Assembly: GCF_000685155.1 (NCBI RefSeq)
Contig: NZ_JMIY01000008.1
Coordinates: 1-55,550 of the forward strand
Length of the DNA: 55,550 nt
Reading direction: 5' to 3'
From: Candidatus Methanoperedens nitratireducens
Lineage (GTDB): Archaea > Halobacteriota > Methanosarcinia > Methanosarcinales > Methanoperedenaceae
The notes beneath the pieces are model-generated. The model did not search any database. It saw nothing but the letters and a program-made list of their open reading frames with translations, and was not told the origin of the DNA. Each line of letters opens with the position of its first letter. The first letter of the stretch is position 1. Positions 15,753 through 37,976 of this stretch are shown here, one piece after another. The position numbers and the translations under genes were made by a program.

Positions 15753-17045
15753 TCATTTAGGCCTGAGATAACCCCATTTATCCAGTGCCTGCTGTAGCTC
15801 TTTGTTCTTTTTTGCATATTCTCTTAGGTCGATCCCTTCCATTGATGCCTCTATTGCCTGCATAACAGCCTTTGCGCCTGCACGTGTTCCCTCCGGGTGC
15901 CCGTGTATTCCGCCGCTAACAAGTAGCGTGCAGTCATTTCCAAGGATTCGCATCACAGATGGGACAAGACCGGGATGAAGACCTCCAGATGAAACAGGAA
16001 GCATGGGTTTTATCAATCCCCACTCCTGTGAGAGCATAGTATTAGCTTTTACACTGGAATCCCGCAGCATATTTGCAATCTGAATTACCTCCTCTCTACT
16101 GCCCACCAGTTTTCCAACGGCTGTACCCACATGAATCTCATCAACACCTATCAATCGCATTAGTTTTGCTAAAAAATACATGGATATTCCATGTCTGGGG
16201 TTCCGATCAAAGGCAGCATGCATGGCACGGTGGGCATGTATGGCTATACCCAGATCGCCGCACTCTTTCCTCAGTGTCTGTACTGCCGCAGTACCGCATG
16301 TAACCACATCGATCATGGCAAATCGAAAGCCAGAATCATGAAGTAGTCTGGCCTTGCGTATCATCTCATTTGTTTCACCTGTGATATTCAGAAGTGCATC
16401 CTTCTGTTCTCCTGTTTGCTCTTGCGCTTTATCTCTTAATTTTGCCATTCGCTCTACCCTGTCCTCAAAGCGATTAAAAGAGGTAGAGGTCAGGTTCTCA
16501 TCATCTTTTACAAGATCAAATCCGCCCATCCATGTCTCAAATGCAATTTGCGCATGTTCTTCTGCGCTGAACCCTATTTTTGGTTTTGGTACTGCGCCTG
16601 TAACAGGTCTTTTTTTAATCCTCAGTAGAGATCTTATTCCCTGGATTCCAAAATTCGGCCCTCTGAAATGCTTTATATAATCCTCTGGCAGTGATGCATC
16701 TACCAGCCTTAAGTTTCGCAGCGCCCTCATCCCGAAGATATTGCCTGCAATCCCGCTCAGCAACTGAGGCGCATTTCCAGGTTCCCACAGCTCTATTGGG
16801 TAGGCCACTTTAACGTAGTTGCTGTCCAGTTCAAAGGCACGCGCCTTGATCTTTGATACCCTGTCAGGTAGCTTATTAAGTGTAGTCCAGGTTCCAGCAG
16901 AACTCTCAGAGGCTATTCTTCCAATGGCCTCTGTGGCACTGATTCCCTTTGCCGGCTCAAAATAATACAGGCAAACAAGATCGTCCTTTGCCAGAGTATA
17001 GCTAAAATCTACAAATTCATCATACCAGTCGATCTTATCAGGCAT
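15753..17045 (-). CDS. rbcL: RuBisCO large subunit, archaeal form III
   Basis: 430-residue carboxylase. Archaeal form III enzymes act in the AMP/nucleoside salvage route that turns ribose-bisphosphate and CO2 into 3-phosphoglycerate rather than in a Calvin cycle. Catalytic lysine in AVPKPKIGFS, carbamylation site GGFDLVKDDEN, substrate-binding AIHAHRAMHAAF and loop-6 lysine in GTAVGKLVGS are all present, so it should be active. The HTH gene ends 5 nt upstream, with GAGGTTACT spanning its stop codon as ribosome-binding site, so the two are cotranscribed. Confidence 0.95.
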   Translation of the reverse strand: MPDKIDWYDEFVDFSYTLAKDDLVCLYYFEPAKGISATEAIGRIASESSAGTWTTLNKLPDRVSKIKARAFELDSNYVKVAYPIELWEPGNAPQLLSGIAGNIFGMRALRNLRLVDASLPEDYIKHFRGPNFGIQGIRSLLRIKKRPVTGAVPKPKIGFSAEEHAQIAFETWMGGFDLVKDDENLTSTSFNRFEDRVERMAKLRDKAQEQTGEQKDALLNITGETNEMIRKARLLHDSGFRFAMIDVVTCGTAAVQTLRKECGDLGIAIHAHRAMHAAFDRNPRHGISMYFLAKLMRLIGVDEIHVGTAVGKLVGSREEVIQIANMLRDSSVKANTMLSQEWGLIKPMLPVSSGGLHPGLVPSVMRILGNDCTLLVSGGIHGHPEGTRAGAKAVMQAIEASMEGIDLREYAKKNKELQQALDKWGYLRPK

Positions 17046-25355: not shown

Positions 25356-26099
25356 CTAATGCCAGGATGTCGACCAGCGCCATGCCATAGTTAGTTGCTC
25401 CTTCAACCGATCAATCCCCTCTTTTATCAGGTTGACCTCAGGCCGGTCACCCACCTTTACCTGAGGCTGGGTCGTATTTTGTTGCGATTCAGTTTCGATA
25501 GAATGGTCCGATGGACTTTTAGCTGTTTCATAGAGCTGCTCAACATAGTGAGTGAATTCGACATAGGCTTCCGCATACTCACGTCCTGCATCAACATTAT
25601 TTGGGTCGTAATTCTTCTTGTCCATGACGTCTTTGAACTGTTTATTGACGCCATTTTGCATATTGTGTGTTAGAAGCTTCAGCAGTTGCTCATCTGAACC
25701 ATTCTCAAGCGCCCTGTCAGCAGCAAGAATTACAGGTTCGACAGCACCTGCTGGTTTCAGACCAGTATAAGGCGCTCCCTCCCCGGCCCGGTGTATGCGA
25801 ACCAGTGTTTCAAAGAAATACATATCTGCAAGGTTCCTGGCTTCAGGGCTTAATTTTCGGACTTCAAGAGTCTTTCGGAAAGCTTCTTTTATTTCGTCCT
25901 CATCCTCCTTTTGTATCCAGATAAGAACGGGGTTTACATTCCCGGTCTCTAGTGCATTTTGAGCAGCTTTGATAACCGGGCCATCCATTGTATCACAATG
26001 TGCAGAAGCCACGTCAGCCCCAGCAATTGCGAACAAGATAACTAAAGCAGTTGCAGCGATAATTTTCTTGGTAATTATAATATTTACTTTTCCCATCAT
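25356..26099 (-). CDS. DUF6448 family exported protein
   Basis: 247 residues with a signal peptide ending ASA at about residue 32. The mature start AHCDTMDGPVI, then VLIWIQKEDEDEIKEAF, FFETLVRIHRAGEGAPYTGL and GYILAADR-like segments are the DUF6448 pattern. The His/Cys start of the mature chain could bind a metal. The C-terminus has a Gln/Thr-rich linker (about residue 198-215). It is on the strand of the membrane Fe-S gene at 26346-27998, but 246 bp apart. Confidence 0.8.
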   Translation of the reverse strand: MMGKVNIIITKKIIAATALVILFAIAGADVASAHCDTMDGPVIKAAQNALETGNVNPVLIWIQKEDEDEIKEAFRKTLEVRKLSPEARNLADMYFFETLVRIHRAGEGAPYTGLKPAGAVEPVILAADRALENGSDEQLLKLLTHNMQNGVNKQFKDVMDKKNYDPNNVDAGREYAEAYVEFTHYVEQLYETAKSPSDHSIETESQQNTTQPQVKVGDRPEVNLIKEGIDRLKEQLTMAWRWSTSWH

Positions 26100-29455: not shown

Positions 29456-29785
29456 TTATCTCCCTTCTTTCTCTAACCTTTCTATAAGTTCCCTTGCCCA
29501 GCTATATGCTACTATCATCCTCGGGAAGCCTGCAGTATTCAGCGTAAGCAGAATGGCATGGTAGATCTCCTCAGGTGTTGCTCCTGCCTCATAGGCCTGG
29601 GTAACATGGGAGCGTATTGCACCATGCAACTGGGCTGATGCTGCCATTCCCAGTTGTATTAGATGACATGTTTTTTTATCAAGCGGTCCAATGCTGTGCA
29701 CCAGCTCACCTGTCTCTTCATGCGCCTGCCAGATATCCGGATACTCCTGGATAAAAGATGTTAGTGCCTCTGAAAATTTCTTGAT
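29456..29785 (-). CDS. Carboxymuconolactone decarboxylase-like (AhpD fold) protein
   Basis: A helical AhpD/CMD-fold protein: PLDKKTCHLIQLGMAASAQ, HGAIRSHVTQAYEAGATPEE, YHAILLTLNTAGFPRMI. The usual CxxC redox pair is not present, as in several archaeal members. Conserved sequence extends upstream to an ATC codon at 29785 with GGAGGG 6 nt before it; no ATG, GTG or TTG lies in that part of the frame. A GTG at 29701 would leave a truncated 81-residue protein. The complete fold therefore seems to use AUC, or the genome has a base change there. Confidence 0.78.
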   Translation of the reverse strand: MKKFSEALTSFIQEYPDIWQAHEETGELVHSIGPLDKKTCHLIQLGMAASAQLHGAIRSHVTQAYEAGATPEEIYHAILLTLNTAGFPRMIVAYSWARELIERLEKEGR

Positions 29786-30009
29786 TTCTAACCCTCCTTA
29801 TTTAAGTTATACATCCTGCCTATTAAAGATTTCGATATTGGAAAAATGAACTGACAGCAGCTCAACAAAATCCGATACATTAGCATTAGCAGAGGAATTC
29901 ATATAGGAAATAGGAGAAATATCGTTTTTAATTATAGTTAATAACAGTTAAATTTTTACATTGCCTGATGAATTAAAAAATTCTTACACGGAAGATAGGA
30001 AGTGAAGAA

Positions 30010-31341
30010 ATGAATAAAATATCTATCGGACTAGCTATAATAATTTTTTTTCTGATCGGATTTTCAACAGCGGCACATGCGCAAAAGAACGAAGTAAAGG
30101 ATAATGCCTGCGTAGGCTGCCACACGATGGTAGGTGCCACAAAGGGAATCCTCAATGACTGGAGTATGAGTAAGCATGCCATAAACAATGTCACATGTGA
30201 TAGCTGCCATGCAGCAGACCAGGGAGATAAGGATTCATTCACTCATAATGGTTTTCTTATCACAAAAGCCCCGTCACCCGGGGACTGTAGCAAATGCCAT
30301 CCTGACCAGGTGAAACAGTTCAATGCCGGGAAACACAGCCTGGGCTGGACCAAGATGGAGACTGCGTCGCGGTATAAAGCAATCCCGAATGACATGATGC
30401 GGGCAAGCATGTGCGAAGGATGCCACAGCATCGGAAAGGTATATGCGGACGGCTCGGCTGGGAAGTGCGACTCATGCCACACAAGGCACCTGTTCAGCGC
30501 GGAAGAGGCACGCCAGCCAGAGGCATGTGAGACCTGCCACATGGGACTTGATCATGACCAGATAGAATACTACAGGACATCAAAGCACGGGGTGATCACT
30601 GACCTTGATCGAAATACCACGCGTGCACCTACCTGTGTTACATGCCATGCGGATGGGGGAACGCATGATGTTAGCCAGGGGATCACGTTGGGTTCGGTAT
30701 CGCAGGGTGCCTTTATAAGCGACAGGAACAGCGGCAATGATTATATCACCAGCCCTGATGGGATTATAATGAGATCAATAACCCAGGAAGATTTCAATTC
30801 AGGAAGAACCACGATGCTTCAGATCTGCTCGCGGTGCCACTCAGAATCGTTTGCGCGGGGTGTGCTTGAGCAAGCAGATGAGATAAAGAGGCAATCAGAT
30901 GCAAAAGTAGGTGAAGCTATTAAGATCATAAGCGATCTTTACAATGATGGGCTGCTTGATCCCATGCCTGAGAACAGGACGCTAAACCCGGTGACAGGGA
31001 ATAAACTCACTCTGACAGGACACCAGACCTACTCCAATACCTCTGAAATAGAGGCCGAGTTCTTTGAGATGTACAAGTACGCGCTCATACATGCATGGAA
31101 AGGGGCATACCACATGAACCCGGATTATGCTCACTGGTATGGCTGGGCACAGCTCAACCTGGACCTGGAGAAGATAAAAGCTGAAAACAGGACACTGCGA
31201 AGGTTAGCAGAGCTTGAAAAAGCACTGGAGACTGAAAAAACCGGAACAAAGGCAGGAGTAGTGCCAGGGTTTGAGGGATTTGTTGCTATCGTAGCGCTTG
31301 CAATAATGATATCAATAATCCTGATTAGAAAGAGAAGATAA
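30010..31341 (+). CDS. HAO-like octaheme cytochrome c with PGF-CTERM anchor
   Basis: 443 residues with a signal peptide (to about residue 24) and eight CxxCH heme motifs, the first at 34-38 (CVGCH), then CDSCH, CSKCH, CEGCH, CDSCH, CETCH, CVTCH and CSRCH. The order and linkers (GKCDSCHTRHLFSAEEARQP, EACETCHMGLDHDQIE, APTCVTCHAD) match hydroxylamine oxidoreductase relatives. A Tyr-bearing segment YHMNPDYAHWYGW follows near residue 370; whether it holds the heme-crosslink Tyr needs alignment. The C-terminus PGFEGFVAIVALAIM-KRR is a PGF-CTERM sorting signal, so it is fixed on the cell surface. HAO types oxidise hydroxylamine/hydrazine or reduce nitrite. Confidence 0.93.
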   Translation: MNKISIGLAIIIFFLIGFSTAAHAQKNEVKDNACVGCHTMVGATKGILNDWSMSKHAINNVTCDSCHAADQGDKDSFTHNGFLITKAPSPGDCSKCHPDQVKQFNAGKHSLGWTKMETASRYKAIPNDMMRASMCEGCHSIGKVYADGSAGKCDSCHTRHLFSAEEARQPEACETCHMGLDHDQIEYYRTSKHGVITDLDRNTTRAPTCVTCHADGGTHDVSQGITLGSVSQGAFISDRNSGNDYITSPDGIIMRSITQEDFNSGRTTMLQICSRCHSESFARGVLEQADEIKRQSDAKVGEAIKIISDLYNDGLLDPMPENRTLNPVTGNKLTLTGHQTYSNTSEIEAEFFEMYKYALIHAWKGAYHMNPDYAHWYGWAQLNLDLEKIKAENRTLRRLAELEKALETEKTGTKAGVVPGFEGFVAIVALAIMISIILIRKRR

Positions 31342-31346
31342 AGAGG

Positions 31347-31883
31347 ATGAGAGAATACCTGTTAAAGATGAAGGGCGGTGCGAAAAGCCCGCCCAGAATT
31401 AGATTAGCAGAGATATTCTGGTCATGGACAGGAAGCTTCTCGGGGATCGGGGCTGTAGCCTTTCTTAGCTTTAATTTTTTTGAGTCAGGTGACCTGACCC
31501 TGATCATAGGTTCATTCGGAGCATCGGCAGTACTGATATTCGCAGCTATCAGGAGCCCGCTTGCGCAGCCGCGCAATCTTATAGGAGGCCATGTCCTGTC
31601 AGCCATTATAGGCGTGAGCGCATATCAGATGATGGGTGATACCTGGATGGCAAGTGCATTTGCGGTCTCATCTGCCATAGCAGTGATGCTCTTCACCGAT
31701 ACGCTGCATCCACCTGGAGGCGCTACAGCACTGATAGCTGTGATAGGCAGTGAAGAAATACACAACATTGGCTACCTCTACGTATTTGTACCCACGCTTG
31801 CAGGGGCATTAATCATGCTTGTGATAGCGCTGCTTGTGAATAACCTGGCAGAGGGAAGGAAGTATCCTGAGTACTGGTATTGA
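31347..31883 (+). CDS. HPP family membrane protein, candidate nitrite transporter
   Basis: 178 residues with four or five membrane segments and the family signature DTLHPPGGATALIAV. HPP proteins in chloroplasts and cyanobacteria have been linked to nitrite uptake. It starts 5 nt after the HAO-like gene, so the two are cotranscribed. Moving nitrite for the cytochrome's reaction, or for NrfA, is the obvious idea, though the substrate is not proven. Confidence 0.85.
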   Translation: MREYLLKMKGGAKSPPRIRLAEIFWSWTGSFSGIGAVAFLSFNFFESGDLTLIIGSFGASAVLIFAAIRSPLAQPRNLIGGHVLSAIIGVSAYQMMGDTWMASAFAVSSAIAVMLFTDTLHPPGGATALIAVIGSEEIHNIGYLYVFVPTLAGALIMLVIALLVNNLAEGRKYPEYWY

Positions 31884-31884
31884 G

Positions 31885-32301
31885 CTAAGCTTCCTCAGGC
31901 GGTATGAGCGAACGTCCCACATTATAGACGAAGAGATAAAACCCTATAAGCGATATCGCTCCGAACATCAGAGCCCCCATCTGGTAGCTGCTGCCTGCAA
32001 ACCTGTAGGCATACGTGAGTGTAAGTCCCACAAGGCCTATATTCTGAACCCAGAATTGCAGTTCTGCCAGACGCAGGCTATAGAGTTCAGTACCGGCAAA
32101 TACTGGCAGTAGATGATAACCCACGCCAAATATCATCATGGACACGAAACCTATCAGCAGGATGTGGACATGGGAAAAGGTCAATGAGTACCTCTCCAGC
32201 CCCAATCCCATGGTTCTATCTATAAGAACGATAAACCCCACTGTACCTCCTATTAGCAGATATATCAGACTTGACCAGGCAAATTTCAGCGGTATCTCCA
32301 T
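31885..32301 (-). CDS. Short heme-copper oxidase subunit I-like membrane protein
   Basis: 138 residues, four membrane helices. HVHILLIGFVSMMIFGVGYH and LPVFAGTELYSLRLAELQFW resemble the helix pair in short cbb3/NO-reductase-like proteins that bind heme b with few helices. A complete subunit I has twelve helices, so it cannot be an oxidase on its own. It is convergent with the HPP gene (1 nt gap) and 26 nt downstream of the DUF1858 gene, a pairing often seen near nitric-oxide metabolism genes. Confidence 0.7.
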   Translation of the reverse strand: MEIPLKFAWSSLIYLLIGGTVGFIVLIDRTMGLGLERYSLTFSHVHILLIGFVSMMIFGVGYHLLPVFAGTELYSLRLAELQFWVQNIGLVGLTLTYAYRFAGSSYQMGALMFGAISLIGFYLFVYNVGRSLIPPEEA

Positions 32302-32327
32302 GCGCCCCTTCCTTGTATGCCGTGATC

Positions 32328-32531
32328 TTATGCCAGCCCTGCTGCCATATTCAGCTCATCAAGTAACTGGTTGATATCCACCCTGTGCATCCTGCTGAAA
32401 AACTCAAGCGTCTCAGAGGGCAGCCGTCCCGTATATTTTGGCATGCCGTGTTTGATAAATACATCCCGTGTTTGCGGATATTTTGTTATTACTTCGTTGA
32501 GTTTGTCACTCTTGGTTATCTTTTCTGCCAT
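32328..32531 (-). CDS. DUF1858-like protein
   Basis: 67 residues: ITKSDKLNEVITKYPQTRDV, then FIKHGMPKY and SRMHRVDINQLLDELN. This matches DUF1858, also found at the start of ScdA/RIC proteins that repair NO-damaged iron centres. The usual cysteines are absent here. TGAGGAATT lies before the ATG. It is likely cotranscribed with the oxidase-like gene downstream. Confidence 0.75.
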   Translation of the reverse strand: MAEKITKSDKLNEVITKYPQTRDVFIKHGMPKYTGRLPSETLEFFSRMHRVDINQLLDELNMAAGLA

Positions 32532-32570
32532 AATTCCTCACATCCATTTATTGTTCATCAACATCTATCT

Positions 32571-32808
32571 ACTTTCCGTTTGACAGTGTTTGACAGGAAG
32601 ACAGGATCGATATTAGAAGACCACATCCGCATGCCCACTGGATGAGCAGTGACGGGAAGAAGATGGTGACGCCAAACGCATTCACCGCAGATTCAACGAT
32701 AAACCTGCTTGCAAACTATGATCCCATAAGCGGAGCAATAACCGGTCTGTAGGCGGACTGCCTATCCAGCTTCCGGTCAGCCCGAACGGCAGGTACATGG
32801 TGACAGCG
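32571..32808 (+). pseudogene. Broken beta-propeller protein (YVTN / cytochrome d1-like)
   Basis: Protein-like sequence jumps between three plus-strand frames: VFDRKTGSILEDHIRMP (frame ending at a TGA near 32645), then MSSDGKKMVTPNAFTADSTI and ISGAITG (to TAG near 32751), then GLPIQLPVSPNGRYMVTA. SPNGRYMVTA and SSDGKKMVTP are paired blade motifs of YVTN/cytochrome d1 propellers. At least two frameshifts are needed, so it is dead. Its place between nitrogen-oxide genes suggests a lost nitrite-reductase-type or surface propeller. No intact gene lies in the 32532-32842 gap. Confidence 0.7.
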
Positions 32809-32842
32809 TTTGTCATATTGCTATTTCCTCCTTTAATCTAAA

Positions 32843-33328
32843 TTAAAAAATTTCTATCTTACTTTTAATATTTTCATCCCAGGCAATCCATGGCATCAGT
32901 TGTTTTAGTATTTGAACTGCATCGTAACGCGCAGGGATTTTTAATTTTCTCTTTTTTCCGCATGGAGTTTCGAACAGGTTATTTTGAATTTGTTTATATT
33001 CTTCTGATATATCCTGGAGCTCTTTTCCACATCCACATTCTAGCGGCTTTCCATCATTTTCCCATTTTTTTAGTAATCTCTCTTGCAGTTCTTTCTTTAT
33101 TACATGTGCTTCTTTCTCCTTCAATTCTTCGATCAATTCTTGCTTTGTAATCATTTTTTCCTCCCTGTTAATCCATGCTTTAAAAACCGGGGAGTTTTTT
33201 GGGATTATAACCGGAACATCAAAGTTCAGTTTGCACTTTTGGCATCGGTATTTTGTTTTATTCGAATAATTACGTGTACGCCGAAAAATGGACGAACTGC
33301 CACACTCAGGGCACCGCTTGCGGCTCAT
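32843..33328 (-). CDS. Zinc-ribbon protein of a mobile island
   Basis: 161 residues from ATG 33328. The head is a four-cysteine ribbon, CPECGSSSIFRRTRNYSNKT then YRCQKCKLNF, as in DNA-binding proteins of transposons and archaeal plasmids. The central part is a charged coiled-coil-like helix (KQELIEELKEKEAHVIKKEL), followed by a second CxC set (ECGCGKEL...CGKKRK). It is 87 bp downstream of the integrase gene on the same strand. Probably a DNA-binding partner of the integrase. Confidence 0.7.
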   Translation of the reverse strand: MSRKRCPECGSSSIFRRTRNYSNKTKYRCQKCKLNFDVPVIIPKNSPVFKAWINREEKMITKQELIEELKEKEAHVIKKELQERLLKKWENDGKPLECGCGKELQDISEEYKQIQNNLFETPCGKKRKLKIPARYDAVQILKQLMPWIAWDENIKSKIEIF

Positions 33329-33415
33329 GTTCTCTACCTTTACAGAGAATCGTCCTCTTTTAACAGATAAATTTATCATCACTATCCTCAGGTGCTTTTT
33401 AAAACACGTCCATCA

Positions 33416-34003
33416 TTATTTGACCTCTTTCAGAAACCGTTTCTCAACCTCTGGGGTAACCTTAGCATATGCTTCGTCACCAGTCTGGATGCCTGAACGA
33501 CCTAAACGATAGGCTATAATCTCTTTCGGGACTTTACCAAGTAATCTCATAGCCATACCTTTACGGAGCTTTTGAGCGCTCTTTGGTTTTATGCCTATAC
33601 ACTCGCAATAGCCCTTCAATTTCTTATCGAAATTATCCCTGGACATATCGAATAATAGATTAGAGATACGCCATGCATCCCTGTACTTAATAATTTCATA
33701 AAGTAACGCCTTGTCCAGGGAGATGGTGTGATCTACAATTTTAGATCGCTTTCTAATTTGAAAGGTCAAAGATTCGTTCTTAAAATCGATGTTATCCAAT
33801 TTTAGGCTCAGTGCGTCAGAGATCCGCAATCCCGTGTTCCACAATAATGAGATCAACAGCTTATCCCTGTCCCGAAGGAATGCCTTACACAATGTTGGAA
33901 CCATAAGGTTATCCAGGTACTCCATTAATGAATCGATCTCAGACTGAGTAAAGTACTCATCAGGTTTTTTCCTGGTTTTTGCAGACATGACTGTATTTGG
34001 CAT
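33416..34003 (-). CDS. Tyrosine recombinase (integrase), atypical catalytic set
   Basis: 195 residues. LLISLLWNTGLRISDALSL holds the first catalytic Arg. The second box, KLRKGMAMRLLGK, has Lys where the standard RxxH His sits, and LGRSGIQTGDEAYAK has Arg where His is expected before the putative Tyr. No N-terminal core-binding domain is present, so it is a minimal enzyme. A TATATATA box lies about 25 bp upstream, giving a leaderless message. It may be active with altered chemistry or be in decline. Confidence 0.78.
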   Translation of the reverse strand: MPNTVMSAKTRKKPDEYFTQSEIDSLMEYLDNLMVPTLCKAFLRDRDKLLISLLWNTGLRISDALSLKLDNIDFKNESLTFQIRKRSKIVDHTISLDKALLYEIIKYRDAWRISNLLFDMSRDNFDKKLKGYCECIGIKPKSAQKLRKGMAMRLLGKVPKEIIAYRLGRSGIQTGDEAYAKVTPEVEKRFLKEVK

Positions 34004-34178
34004 AAATTAAAGATTGTCATAGTTGTATATATATCATACTGAATTGTCTGATAAATATAGTCAATAGATATATGAAGAAGCCGCAGCCAGAAAGATTTAA
34101 TCTCACGCCAGGCTTTCACTATATCTATTGGCTTAACATTGCATAGCTTTTCTGTACTTAATTTATAATTTCCTTTTA

Positions 34179-34307
34179 CTATTCTTTGCGGCTTTTAAGT
34201 TGTTCGAGAAATTTTCTCTGCTTTTCTCTCTCAGCTTCAGAGACTTCTGGTTTTTTGACCTGCTTTGCTTTTTCAGCCAGGTCCATCGAGCTTTCAAGTC
34301 CAACCAT
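34179..34307 (-). CDS. 42-residue charged small protein
   Basis: A short frame with a strong AGGAGGTG 7 nt upstream encodes 42 residues, highly charged and helical (EVSEAEREKQRKFLEQLKSR). No family is recognised. It is divergent from the 41-residue gene at 34522 across a 214-bp AT-rich gap with TATA-like boxes. Probably a component of the integrase island. Confidence 0.6.
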   Translation of the reverse strand: MVGLESSMDLAEKAKQVKKPEVSEAEREKQRKFLEQLKSRKE

Positions 34308-34521
34308 TTCTTGCACCTCCTATTATGTGACATTGGAGCGATCGTAGTTTGTTATAATTGTATATAAAATTATGCCAAATTGTCTACAAAATTCGTACTA
34401 ATTGTAGAATTTAAGTTCTGGATTTAACCTATATAATAATCGACGACAGTGGAGGTCTATCAATAACATTTATATACAATAAGAACACCAGTAGGTTACC
34501 GTTTGCCTTATAGGAGGAGAT

Positions 34522-34647
34522 ATGCAAAAAGTAACAAAATATAGAGACGGTGGAATGAAATATTGTCTCAAGGTCGGTTCAGGAGAAATGTTTCTTAAAA
34601 GAAATAACCAGGCGGCTATAAGTGAGGTATACAATGTTCGTATCTAG
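34522..34647 (+). CDS. 41-residue small protein
   Basis: The frame opens at ATG 34522 behind AGGAGGAGA and codes for 41 residues (KYRDGGMKYCLKVGSGEMF, FLKRNNQAAISEVYNV). No family is recognised. It ends 33 nt before nrfH, on the same strand, so it may be read with it or share its promoter. An unassigned part of the island. Confidence 0.55.
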   Translation: MQKVTKYRDGGMKYCLKVGSGEMFLKRNNQAAISEVYNVRI

Positions 34648-34680
34648 CGTAAATCCACATGTAACGGCAGGGTGAGGATA

Positions 34681-35166
34681 ATGAAGTTTCTGTTTATTGC
34701 GGGGATTTTTGTACTGGTTGCAATGGGATCAGGAACGTATGTTAATGATTCGGATATGCACATCAGCAATTTAACTGAGTACATTGGGAACACTCTCACA
34801 GCATGTAACAGTTGCCACGTGATGGGTGCTGTTTATGAAAGCTGGTATCACGGCGATCACAAAAACAGGGCGGAATGCAGCGATTGCCATATTCCGCACG
34901 ACCCGATTACAAAGTATGTTGTGAAAGCAGAATCGGGTATCCGCGATGTAACAGCCGTTATCACTGGTAACGTCCCTGAGGTCATTCGCACCACTGAGAA
35001 TTCGCAAAAGATAATCCAGGGTAATTGCCTGCACTGTCATGAGCAAACAGTAGGGAATATCGCCGATAGCAAAAGGAATGATGAGCGTTACTGTTTCGAG
35101 TGCCACCGTACAGTTGCACACGGCGAAAGGGGAATCTCTCTATCACCATATCAGGAGGGCAAATGA
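34681..35166 (+). CDS. nrfH: Cytochrome c nitrite reductase, small subunit NrfH
   Basis: 161 residues from ATG 34681 (GGGTGAGG upstream; GTG at 34672 is possible). N-terminal membrane helix, then four CxxCH motifs: CNSCH, CSDCH, CLHCH, CFECH. It takes electrons from the membrane quinol/methanophenazine pool and passes them to NrfA. NrfA starts inside its stop codon (ATGA), so the pair is tightly coupled. Confidence 0.93.
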   Translation: MKFLFIAGIFVLVAMGSGTYVNDSDMHISNLTEYIGNTLTACNSCHVMGAVYESWYHGDHKNRAECSDCHIPHDPITKYVVKAESGIRDVTAVITGNVPEVIRTTENSQKIIQGNCLHCHEQTVGNIADSKRNDERYCFECHRTVAHGERGISLSPYQEGK

Positions 35167-36467
35167 GGCGTTCTATCTCTATTATTATTCTGACAGGTCT
35201 GATAATCGTCCTGACAGCAGCTTTAACCGCTGCACTTATGTACATCAATAACCAGCCTGTCTCAAATCGCGGCATCAACCAGATATTCGAAGTGCCTGCA
35301 ATGGAACCTGATTCAGCTCAATGGGGATTGAACTTCCCGAATCAATACTCAACCTTTTTGCTTACAAAAACCAACCAGAACCGCACTAAATATGGCGGCT
35401 CATTCCCATATTCAAAATTGGAGATTAACCCGCGTCTTGTCATTTTATATGCCGGATCTGGTTATGACATAGATTACAACGAAGAACGCGGTCATCTTAA
35501 CAGCCTGACCGATGTAAGGAGTATTGAGCGGATCAACAATAAAACGCCCGGTACCTGCTACTCATGTAAGAGTTCGGATAACCCGGGCCTGTGGGCAAAA
35601 ATGGGAATGGCAGAGTTTGATAAAACCATGTTTAGCGAACTTGGAAAAAATATCAATAACCCGATTGGCTGCGCTAATTGCCATGAAGCCAGTACTATGC
35701 GCCTGGTTGTTACAAATCCTGCGCTGGACGAAGCTCTTAAGTCCCAGGGCAAAGACTGGCGTACCTTCACACGCCAGGAGATGCGTACGGTGGTCTGCGC
35801 TAATTGCCATGTGGAATATTATTTCGCAGGTGAAGGCAAGTACCTGACCTTCCCCTGGAAGAACGGTACCCGGATAGAAGATATAACCGCATATTATGAC
35901 AATATAGGGTTCAAAGACTGGCAGCATGCTATTTCCGGTGCACCGATGATCAAGATACAGCACCCCGAATATGAAATGTACACAGCAGATAGTACTCATT
36001 ACAGGGCAGGGGTGTCCTGTGCAGATTGTCACATGCCCTACACCCGTGAAGGTGCTGCAAAATTCTCTACCCACGATGTCAAGAGCCCATTGTTAAATGC
36101 AAACCTTGCATGCGGCGCATGTCACCGTGATGTGGAGTATGCAACTTACAGGGCTGCTACGATCCAGAGTCAGGTGCAGATGTCCATGAACGTTACTGAA
36201 GATGCGCTCATTGCGGCTATTAAGACTATTAAGGCAGCTTCACTGAAACCGGATCCGGACATGAAGGTACTGGCTGAAGCCCGGCAACTGCACCGCGAAG
36301 CGCAGATGCGCTGGGATTTCGTGGCTGCTGAAAATAGCATGGGTTTCCACAATCCTGAGGAGGCTCTGCGCATTCTGCTTTCCTCGGCTGATCTTGCCAG
36401 ACAGGCGCAACTGAAAGCCGTGCAGGCTGCTGGCAGTCCTGCAGTCATATGGAACGGCAGCCACTAA
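35163..36467 (+). CDS. nrfA: Cytochrome c nitrite reductase, catalytic subunit NrfA
   Basis: 434 residues. Reduces nitrite to ammonium with six electrons in the periplasm/pseudoperiplasm. The catalytic heme has the lysine-ligated CxxCK motif (CYSCKSS), and four CxxCH motifs follow (CANCH, CANCH, CADCH, CGACH), the standard five. N-terminal signal anchor present. The site preceding CADCHM has the conserved HYRAGVSC region. Complete in length; functional. It overlaps nrfH by 4 nt. Confidence 0.95.
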   Translation: MRRSISIIILTGLIIVLTAALTAALMYINNQPVSNRGINQIFEVPAMEPDSAQWGLNFPNQYSTFLLTKTNQNRTKYGGSFPYSKLEINPRLVILYAGSGYDIDYNEERGHLNSLTDVRSIERINNKTPGTCYSCKSSDNPGLWAKMGMAEFDKTMFSELGKNINNPIGCANCHEASTMRLVVTNPALDEALKSQGKDWRTFTRQEMRTVVCANCHVEYYFAGEGKYLTFPWKNGTRIEDITAYYDNIGFKDWQHAISGAPMIKIQHPEYEMYTADSTHYRAGVSCADCHMPYTREGAAKFSTHDVKSPLLNANLACGACHRDVEYATYRAATIQSQVQMSMNVTEDALIAAIKTIKAASLKPDPDMKVLAEARQLHREAQMRWDFVAAENSMGFHNPEEALRILLSSADLARQAQLKAVQAAGSPAVIWNGSH

Positions 36468-36618: not shown

Positions 36619-37221
36619 ATGAACATTAACAATAAGAGTATACTGGCTGCTCTTATACTGATCACAGCATTAGGTATACCTACGGTGACAACATTCAGTG
36701 CACCACCGGCATCAGATGATCGCAACTTCGCAGCGCATCTTCTGGGTAATGAGGAAGTGCCACCTGTAGATACTCTGGCTCAGGGTCGTGCTACCTTCCG
36801 GCTTAATGAAGATGGCACAGAGCTGAGTTACAGGCTCAATGTATCAAATATTGAGGACGTATCTATGGCGCATATACATCTTGGCGCAGCAGGGATGAAC
36901 GGTCCGGTAGTTGCATGGCTCTATCCTGGTGAGCCACAGCCTGCGGTGATCCCGGGCAGATTTGATGGAGTGCTTGCAGAGGGTACAATCACTGCCGATA
37001 ATCTGGTCGGTCCGCTTGAAGGACAGTCTCTGAAAGCACTAATGGACGTTATGAGGGCTGGTGAGACCTATGCCAATGTGCATACAGAACAGAATCCAGA
37101 AGGTGAGGTCCGCGGCCAGATCAGGACTGAAACAGCGATACCAGAATTTCCACCTGGTATACTGCTCCCGATAGCTGGCATAATGGGCATAGTAGCGTTA
37201 TTATATAGAAGAGAAAAGTGA
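36619..37221 (+). CDS. CHRD-domain surface protein with PEF-CTERM (1)
   Basis: 200 residues. Signal peptide to about residue 28, then one CHRD domain (FAAHLLGNEEVPPVDT, MAHIHLGAAGMNGPVV, YANVHTEQNPEGEVRGQI). The end EFPPGILLPIAGIMGIVALLYRR is a PEF-CTERM sorting tag (in two short pieces: PEFPPGILLP and IAGIMGIVALLYRR) recognised by an archaeosortase C-type enzyme. Function unknown; CHRD proteins are extracellular. It starts behind GGGGGTGAG. A hairpin terminator overlaps its stop. Paralog at 37326. Confidence 0.88.
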   Translation: MNINNKSILAALILITALGIPTVTTFSAPPASDDRNFAAHLLGNEEVPPVDTLAQGRATFRLNEDGTELSYRLNVSNIEDVSMAHIHLGAAGMNGPVVAWLYPGEPQPAVIPGRFDGVLAEGTITADNLVGPLEGQSLKALMDVMRAGETYANVHTEQNPEGEVRGQIRTETAIPEFPPGILLPIAGIMGIVALLYRREK

Positions 37222-37242
37222 TTTTTATCACTTTTATTTTTT
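37214..37242 (+). terminator. Hairpin and T-run overlapping the stop codon
   Basis: AAAAGTGAT and ATCACTTTT form a stem around TTTT, followed by ATTTTTTT. The stop codon of the first CHRD gene lies in the left arm. Confidence 0.65.
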
Positions 37243-37325
37243 TATTTATATGTCTCCTGCATACAGAAAATTATTATAGATATTAACTACATAAGTATTG
37301 TAACCAATATAAGGGGGTTTTAATA

Positions 37326-37976
37326 GTGAGTGGAAAGAATATTTTAGTTGCACTTATACTGGTAATGCTTATTGCACCGGCAATAAGTGCGTCTACAGTG
37401 CCAGATAATCGCAATTTTGCAACACACCTCTCGGGCGATAAGGAAGTGCCACCAGTGGATACTCAGGCCCAGGGTCAGGCCCACTTCAAGCTCAGTAAAG
37501 ATGGCACGGAGCTGAGTTACAAGCTCAACGTAGCAAACATCGAGGACGTATCTATGGCGCACATACATCTTGGCGCAGAAGGTGTAAATGGACCAATCGT
37601 TGTATGGCTGTATCCCGACACACCGCCGCCTGTTCTGATTCCAGGCAGGTTCAGTGGAGTGCTTGCAGAAGGTACAATAACTGCTGATGATCTGGTCGGT
37701 CCGCTTGAAGGACAGTCCCTGAGCGAGCTAATAGATGCCATGAGCGCTGGTGAAACCTATGTCAATGTCCATACCGAGCAAAATCCTGCAGGTGAAATCC
37801 GCGGTCAGGTCCATGGAAAGCTGTCTGAGCCTGAGGTAACAGTAACTGTAACAGCAACTGTGACTGCAACTGCAACGCCATCTGAACCTGTAACATCAAT
37901 ACCAGAATTCCCGCTTGGCATACTGCTCCCTATTGCTGGTATACTGGGCATAGCAGCACTGTTATATAGAAGATAA
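37326..37976 (+). CDS. CHRD-domain surface protein with PEF-CTERM (2)
   Basis: 216 residues from GTG 37326. Same architecture as its neighbour: signal peptide, CHRD domain (SGDKEVPPVDTQAQG, AHIHLGAEGVNGPIVVWLYP, NVHTEQNPAGEIRGQ), a low-complexity TVTVTATVTATATPSEP linker not present in the first copy, and a PEF-CTERM tail (PEFPLGILLPIAGILGIA). Very high similarity with the first gene shows tandem duplication. Both follow nrfA and may be part of the same surface programme. Confidence 0.88.
   Translation: MSGKNILVALILVMLIAPAISASTVPDNRNFATHLSGDKEVPPVDTQAQGQAHFKLSKDGTELSYKLNVANIEDVSMAHIHLGAEGVNGPIVVWLYPDTPPPVLIPGRFSGVLAEGTITADDLVGPLEGQSLSELIDAMSAGETYVNVHTEQNPAGEIRGQVHGKLSEPEVTVTVTATVTATATPSEPVTSIPEFPLGILLPIAGILGIAALLYRR

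Follow-up and report, generated by a model that had tools for sequence, protein, structure and literature searches.

Cytochromes of the hydroxylamine oxidoreductase (HAO) family without the cross-link Tyr are held to be reductive (PMC12758564; PMC3701875), and the Kuenenia enzyme KsHAOr, which has no cross-link, is described in PMC12485887, citing Ferousi 2021, as slowly reducing nitrite to NO. As summarized in PMC7438415, citing Maeda 2014, an HPP protein is a nitrite transporter in cyanobacteria and chloroplasts, and two Kuenenia HPP genes rise under nitrite limitation. HAO-family proteins are already known in archaea (PMC4429474), and the literature searched names NrfAH as the only route for nitrite during nitrate-dependent methane oxidation. 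Here we describe a locus of Candidatus Methanoperedens nitratireducens, a nitrate-respiring, methane-oxidizing archaeon, within positions 1-55550 (the window) of contig C8 (122 kb) of a genome of 3,203,386 bases in 10 contigs, and compare it across a set of 34 Methanoperedenaceae genomes. The window encodes an HAO-family cytochrome, and an HPP gene starts 5 nt past its stop codon:

30010..31341, + strand: HAO-family octaheme cytochrome c, 443 aa, eight CxxCH motifs (PF13447, 1.4e-31; closest PDB chain, 6h5l)
31264..31338, + strand: predicted PGF-type C-terminal anchor of the HAO (from sequence and hydropathy)
31347..31883, + strand: TM_HPP membrane protein, putative nitrite transporter, 178 aa (PF04982, 2.8e-61; HPP motif at residue 121)

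The explanation that we favor, with middling confidence, is that the cytochrome is a cell-surface HAO of the reductive type, lacking the cross-link Tyr, which together with its own HPP nitrite carrier would form part of the nitrate-respiration equipment of Methanoperedens.

The cytochrome is an HAO-family protein

The eight CxxCH motifs are at residues 34, 63, 93, 135, 153, 173, 209 and 273, and the HAO signature CDSCHTRHxFS...EACxTCHMGxDH is present. No CxxCK, the active-site heme motif of NrfA and octaheme nitrite reductase, is found in the window HAO or its relatives. The strong PDB sequence matches are all HAO-type octahemes (6h5l 3.9e-34, 4n4j 5.6e-32, 4fas 7e-29), and the NCBIfam hydrazine dehydrogenase model gives 101 bits, far below its cut-off of 900. 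For the HAO, AlphaFold gave a weak model (pLDDT 63.7, TM 0.46), on which we based no active-site geometry; searched with Foldseek, it returns 11 matches at E <= 1.1e-8, all HAO-type and with 6h5l first, the NrfA and ONR folds being reached only at E > 0.2. In the tree, the Methanoperedens HAO proteins group as a single clade (100/99) whose sister comes from a Hainich groundwater bacterium (100/96). The dN/dS of the window HAO, 0.195 relative to G002, indicates purifying selection. By profile, PDB matches, fold search and tree, the cytochrome genuinely belongs to the HAO-family octahemes, as had been proposed in an earlier sequence-only reading of the window, and it does not cluster with unrelated octahemes. 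Because the PDB sequences, assembled in part from alignments, sit on long branches that join, the tree does not decide which of the solved HAOs is closest, and placement relative to them was dropped.

An active site resembling the reducing type

The active-site Asp-His pair, residues 267/268 in the Nitrosomonas enzyme, corresponds to D181 and H182 and is kept in all aligned relatives, with the exception of one PDB reference. The active-site loop MNPDYAHWYGWAQ (HAO residues 369-381) is without Tyr at the cross-link position. Counted from the conserved preceding His, with the anchoring done by hand, loop position +8 is Tyr in the oxidizing HAOs 4fas and 4n4j and Trp in the window HAO (Trp376) and in KsHAOr (6h5l). 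Trp occupies this position in 53 of 56 family members, an agreement biased by the retrieval of some relatives with patterns on that same loop; archaeal relatives retrieved by profile also have Trp at +8. In length the loop equals that of KsHAOr and is shorter than in the oxidizing HAOs. An alternative gap placement puts His375, instead of Trp376, at the position of the cross-link Tyr467. A MAFFT placement of a 4n4j Gln under Tyr467 was rejected, because 4n4j is an oxidizing HAO and hand anchoring gives Tyr at +8. The search for a cross-link Tyr advised with the earlier reading, done as this loop comparison, thus locates Trp (or His375) at the site, not Tyr.

Because Trp at +8 and the loop length are shared with KsHAOr, the window HAO probably resembles the reducing rather than the oxidizing kind. 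A hydroxylamine- or NO-oxidizing enzyme, working in the direction of classical HAO or HOX and regaining electrons from leaked intermediates, would fit the HAO fold and family, and Tyr373 and Tyr377 are 1-4 residues from the cross-link position, so that a shifted cross-link is possible from the sequence; with Trp at the position itself and a shorter loop, as in KsHAOr, we regard such an enzyme as improbable.

A likely surface anchor

The N-terminus of the HAO is signal-like, and its C-terminal tail PGFEGFVAIVALAIMISIILIRKRR fits a PGF-CTERM anchor in having PGF, a hydrophobic stretch (421-439) and a basic tail. PGF is retained in all nine intact Methanoperedens HAOs, and the window genome has two archaeosortase A genes (261 and 228 bits, cut-off 75). 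No PGF-CTERM profile matched the HAO, the nearest being Heimdall-CTERM (19.4 bits, cut-off 24), and for that reason surface anchoring, which the earlier reading had also proposed, is graded as likely and not as proven.

Such an anchor would also suit a terminal cytochrome of extracellular electron transfer, serving metal oxides or partners and reducing nitrite or hydroxylamine as a side activity, as in Thermincola OcwA, which reduces iron oxide, nitrite and hydroxylamine (PMC6703420). An HAO is also encoded in G004, a record named FeB_1 in which there is no NarG or HPP match. The Asp-His pair is, however, retained throughout the relatives, and HAO is linked to, or co-occurs with, HPP, a siroheme reductase and NarG, as described below; a role primarily in electron transfer therefore seems unlikely.

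HAO and HPP are linked

HAO, or a recognizable piece of it, is present in 11 of the 34 genomes and HPP in nine, every one of them among those 11 (Fisher p ~1e-6, kinship ignored). HPP is located <=3 kb downstream and on the same strand in seven of the nine intact HAO loci (window, G002, G003, G013, G015, G030-C10 and G032), G030-C4 and G004 being the two without a nearby HPP, and it is also near the frameshifted HAO of G001 and the split, divergent HAO of G031. The adjacency first seen in the window is thus conserved, with HPP confined to HAO-bearing genomes, and on this genomic evidence the pair is inherited together. Neither HPP nor any other shared partner is found beside the bacterial HAO relatives, and relatives in other archaeal families (G419, G115) are near a NirB-like siroheme domain. 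The HPP gene is under purifying selection (dN/dS = 0.154). A simple hydropathy scan of its product reveals two strong helices, the Pfam model spans residues 15-174, and four helices are expected of HPP nitrite transporters. The HAO of G001 (isolate Mnv1; L051, 8880-10207) has a one-base deletion that is either real decay or an assembly error; this genome has NarG and is without NrfA.

In relatives, the gene of a CBS-pair protein (PF00571, 1.9e-34) is interposed between HAO and HPP and has a 4-nt overlap with HPP. The gene order in G032 and G001, HAO, TusA, siroheme reductase, amidohydrolase, CBS and HPP, looks like the ancestral one. In G002 the start of a truncated amidohydrolase remains before CBS, and in the window all of the intervening genes are gone, with 5 nt left; judged by gene order, the tight spacing in the window is therefore a derived deletion. 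HPP-CBS-amidohydrolase is found also away from HAO in G003.

Since G032 and G001 encode TusA and a siroheme protein in the interval from HAO to CBS-HPP, HAO could serve sulfur, as part of a set for handling sulfite made up of the octaheme cytochrome, TusA and a small siroheme sulfite reductase; the best profile for the siroheme protein is that of sulfite reductase subunit C (133 bits, under the cut-off). But a search for the siroheme gene (E 1e-60, >=86% identity) gave no match in the window genome, G002, G004, G015 or G031, the HPP and NarG links point to nitrite, and one siroheme enzyme of ANME, despite its sulfite reductase name, turned out to be a nitrite reductase (PMC9295563). A sulfur function for HAO is, in our view, a slim prospect.

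Nitrate reductase, NrfA and CO dehydrogenase

A non-canonical NarG (~1160 aa) is encoded in exactly six genomes (G000, G001, G002, G003, G013 and G030), all of which have HAO and HPP; it is within ~10 kb of HAO in G001, G003, G013 and G030 and on other contigs in the window genome and G002. Neither HAO nor HPP is present in the genomes that encode another type-II enzyme, of 935-990 aa (G014, G016, G017, G024, G027, G028 and G029). Downstream of the HAO group, the window also encodes NrfHA:

32843..34003, - strand: zinc-ribbon protein and phage-type integrase, outside the module (integrase 33416-34003, PF00589, 4.5e-15)
34672..35166, + strand: NrfH, tetraheme quinol dehydrogenase, four CxxCH motifs (TIGR03153, 136.5 bits, curated cut-off 134.2)
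35157..36467, + strand: NrfA, pentaheme ammonium-forming nitrite reductase (PF02335, 2.4e-133; CxxCK at 134 plus four CxxCH)

The zinc-ribbon and integrase genes, which went unmentioned in the earlier reading, separate the HAO group from NrfHA, so the two are not one operon. Window-type NrfA is present in only four of the 34 genomes, has HAO nearby in no more than two of them, the window genome and its sister G002, and is missing from seven genomes that have HAO. The special partnership of HAO with NrfHA that had been suggested from the window is thus not borne out, whereas the HAO family, the probable surface anchor and the HPP pairing stand. Steadier companions of HAO than NrfHA are the CBS protein, the siroheme reductase with TusA, the non-canonical NarG and, in several lineages, CO dehydrogenase. 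G013, which is NarG-positive, without window-type NrfA and with an intact HAO-CBS-HPP, is the one genome (93% complete) that hints at replacement of NrfA. In G002, a 525-aa cupredoxin-like plus beta-propeller protein (L043, 13400-14977) is encoded between the HAO group and the integrase; it is missing at the same site in the window.

A true CooS (TIGR01702, 773-797 bits in the three tested) is encoded next to, or <=2 genes from, HAO in G003, G013, G030 (two loci), G031, G015 and, from another archaeal family, G058. This arrangement would be expected if HAO functioned in CO-driven nitrate ammonification, with CooS giving the reductant and HAO taking the nitrite. BLZ2 oxidizes CO with nitrate and the cluster drawn for it includes cooS and hao (PMC13079737), and Deferribacter autotrophicus couples CO oxidation to nitrate ammonification, by a proposed HAO route and with no NrfA (PMC6896113). 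The CooS genes of the window genome are, however, only distantly related (48% and 36%) and not on the contig of the window, and there is no CooS beside HAO in G002, G032, G004 or G001. We give this explanation a low probability, and treat the CO link as a rival or an extension rather than as part of the window's own anatomy. The CooS-HAO neighborhoods themselves (L046, L047, L048, L050 and L182) may mark CO-driven nitrate reduction.

A proposed reductive HAO with a nitrite carrier

If the cytochrome is a surface-anchored, reductive HAO with its own nitrite carrier, NarG would make nitrite outside the cytoplasmic membrane, the PGF-type anchor would hold HAO at the membrane or S-layer, and other multiheme cytochromes would feed it electrons. 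HAO would then reduce nitrite to NO, hydroxylamine or ammonium, or would remove NO and hydroxylamine leaking from other reductases, and HPP would move nitrite inward across the membrane. In relatives, HPP has as neighbors a CBS regulator and a reductase of the siroheme nitrite/sulfite type, which would act on the imported nitrite. Hcp (TIGR01703), the hydroxylamine reductase that the reverse-HURM scheme requires, is absent from 34 of 34 Methanoperedenaceae genomes at E 1e-80, a search in which control genomes do match, so released hydroxylamine would need another sink. The HAO family, the eight hemes, the lack of Tyr at the cross-link position, the HAO-(CBS)-HPP linkage, the full co-occurrence with non-canonical NarG and the purifying selection are directly observed; the catalytic direction, substrate, product and electron donor of HAO, its anchoring and the substrate of HPP are inferred.

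Several observations, in addition to the nearby Tyr373 and Tyr377, weigh against this explanation. A nitrate island that is shared and partly mobile could, by linkage alone, account for the co-occurrence (PMC13079737). Contig C27 of G003 (129.6 kb; L046, L176), which encodes NrfA, canonical and non-canonical NarG, two siroheme reductases, two HPP, CooS and HAO, is as large as the stretch common to BLZ2 and a 156-kb mobile element (PMC13079737), so that co-transfer explains part of the HAO, HPP and NarG co-occurrence. HAO is present without NarG or HPP in G004, and with HPP but without the non-canonical NarG in G015, G031 and G032. The neighbor of HAO in several relatives is CO dehydrogenase, not a nitrogen gene, and no Kustc0457-like partner of KsHAOr was noticed beside the window HAO.

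More tentatively, nitrate-respiring Methanoperedens might have, in the surface-anchored reductive HAO and its dedicated HPP, a second nitrite-disposal system able to stand in for NrfA, and so be HAO-type nitrite reducers, a generalization that we still consider doubtful. An HAO-type enzyme that tracks NarG better than NrfA does would, if real, change the products to be predicted (NO, hydroxylamine, ammonium) and hence alter cross-feeding with anammox and Methylomirabilis bacteria. The linkage also provides a conserved genomic handle on HPP proteins in archaea, where their role is putative.

Other genes in the window

The remaining genes adjoining the HAO-HPP pair are:

29456..29701, - strand: carboxymuconolactone-decarboxylase/AhpD-type small protein, divergent from HAO (PF02627, 1e-12)
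31885..32301, - strand: short COX1-like membrane protein, resembling the C-terminal half of heme-copper oxidase subunit I, 138 aa (PF00115, 1.9e-10, partial)
32328..32531, - strand: DUF1858 protein, paired with the COX1-like gene (PF08984, 8.1e-10)

These COX1-like and DUF1858 genes, together with the HAO-like octaheme, HPP and NrfHA, had all been recognized and placed correctly from the sequence alone, as sequence and profile matches confirm. The PF00115 match covers only model positions 306-398 of 436, and an HxH pair kept in the COX1-like protein resembles, as we read it, that of oxidase helix X. Close relatives (64-71%) of this protein are found in about half of the family. A COX1-like gene is near HPP, without HAO beside it, also in G003 and G032, and the same COX1-like/DUF1858 pair, with the DUF1858 members identified by eye, is present in L176, L177 and L179. 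As this widespread pair also turns up near HPP in places without HAO, it may go with HPP rather than with HAO. Against TIGR03980 the DUF1858 protein scores 35.6 bits, below the cut-off of 44.95, and the linkage to Hcp hinted at by the name of that model was rejected, Hcp being absent.

A relative of the carboxymuconolactone-type gene adjoins HAO also in G001 (83%) and G002 (100%). The gene in the window (29456-29790) seems to use a non-ATG start, as its relative in L179 is ~28 residues longer N-terminally and the window has ATC at the site of the ATG. A DUF6448 protein is encoded 4 kb from HAO (25356-26099), and a look-alike, recognized by eye from its HCDTMDGP start (L185, 1532-2071), is directly upstream of HAO in the archaeal genome G416. 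Elsewhere in the window, two tandem CHRD-domain proteins with PEF-type tails are encoded downstream of NrfA (36619-37976), and a RuBisCO large-chain gene adjoins a helix-turn-helix regulator (15753-17045).

Comparison with known systems

Archaeal HAO-family proteins, Tyr-less reductive HAOs, nitrite transport by HPP and the BLZ2 'hao' gene are already known. Our literature search, with most subscription journals outside its scope, turned up no mention of the conserved HAO-(CBS)-HPP module, of its tracking of NarG or of the surface anchor. The BLZ2 'hao', in a cooS and non-canonical nar cluster present on the chromosome and on a 156-kb mobile element, is probably the orthologue in L075 (71% identical), on contig NTMG01000017, whose 129.6 kb equal the shared region in size. 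In the 2026 paper (PMC13079737) it is drawn and named only, without a role, an HPP link or an active-site analysis, and the window HAO differs in lying off that cluster, without CooS or CBS.

The HPP protein belongs to the same TM_HPP family, and has the same HPP motif, as the nitrite transporters of cyanobacteria and chloroplasts and the Kuenenia candidates (PMC7438415); here it is archaeal, a putative transporter, and next to HAO. In the Nautilia reverse-HURM pathway (PMC3701875), as in Deferribacter and Thermosulfurimonas (PMC6896113; PMC5276818), an HAO without the critical Tyr is the proposed nitrite reductase. The window genome resembles these HAO ammonifiers in having an NrfH/NapC-type donor, and a T. 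dismutans HAO (L095) is included in our tree; it differs in having NarG rather than Nap and HPP as a partner, and in the lack of Hcp noted above for the whole family. The closest likeness is to KsHAOr (Kuenenia Kustc0457/Kustc0458; PDB 6h5l), which is the top match in both sequence and fold and shares the eight hemes, the loop length, Trp at the cross-link site and the Asp-His pair. At ~28% identity, the window HAO differs from it in being archaeal, in the absence of a noticed Kustc0457-like diheme partner, in the likely PGF-type anchor and in its link to HPP.

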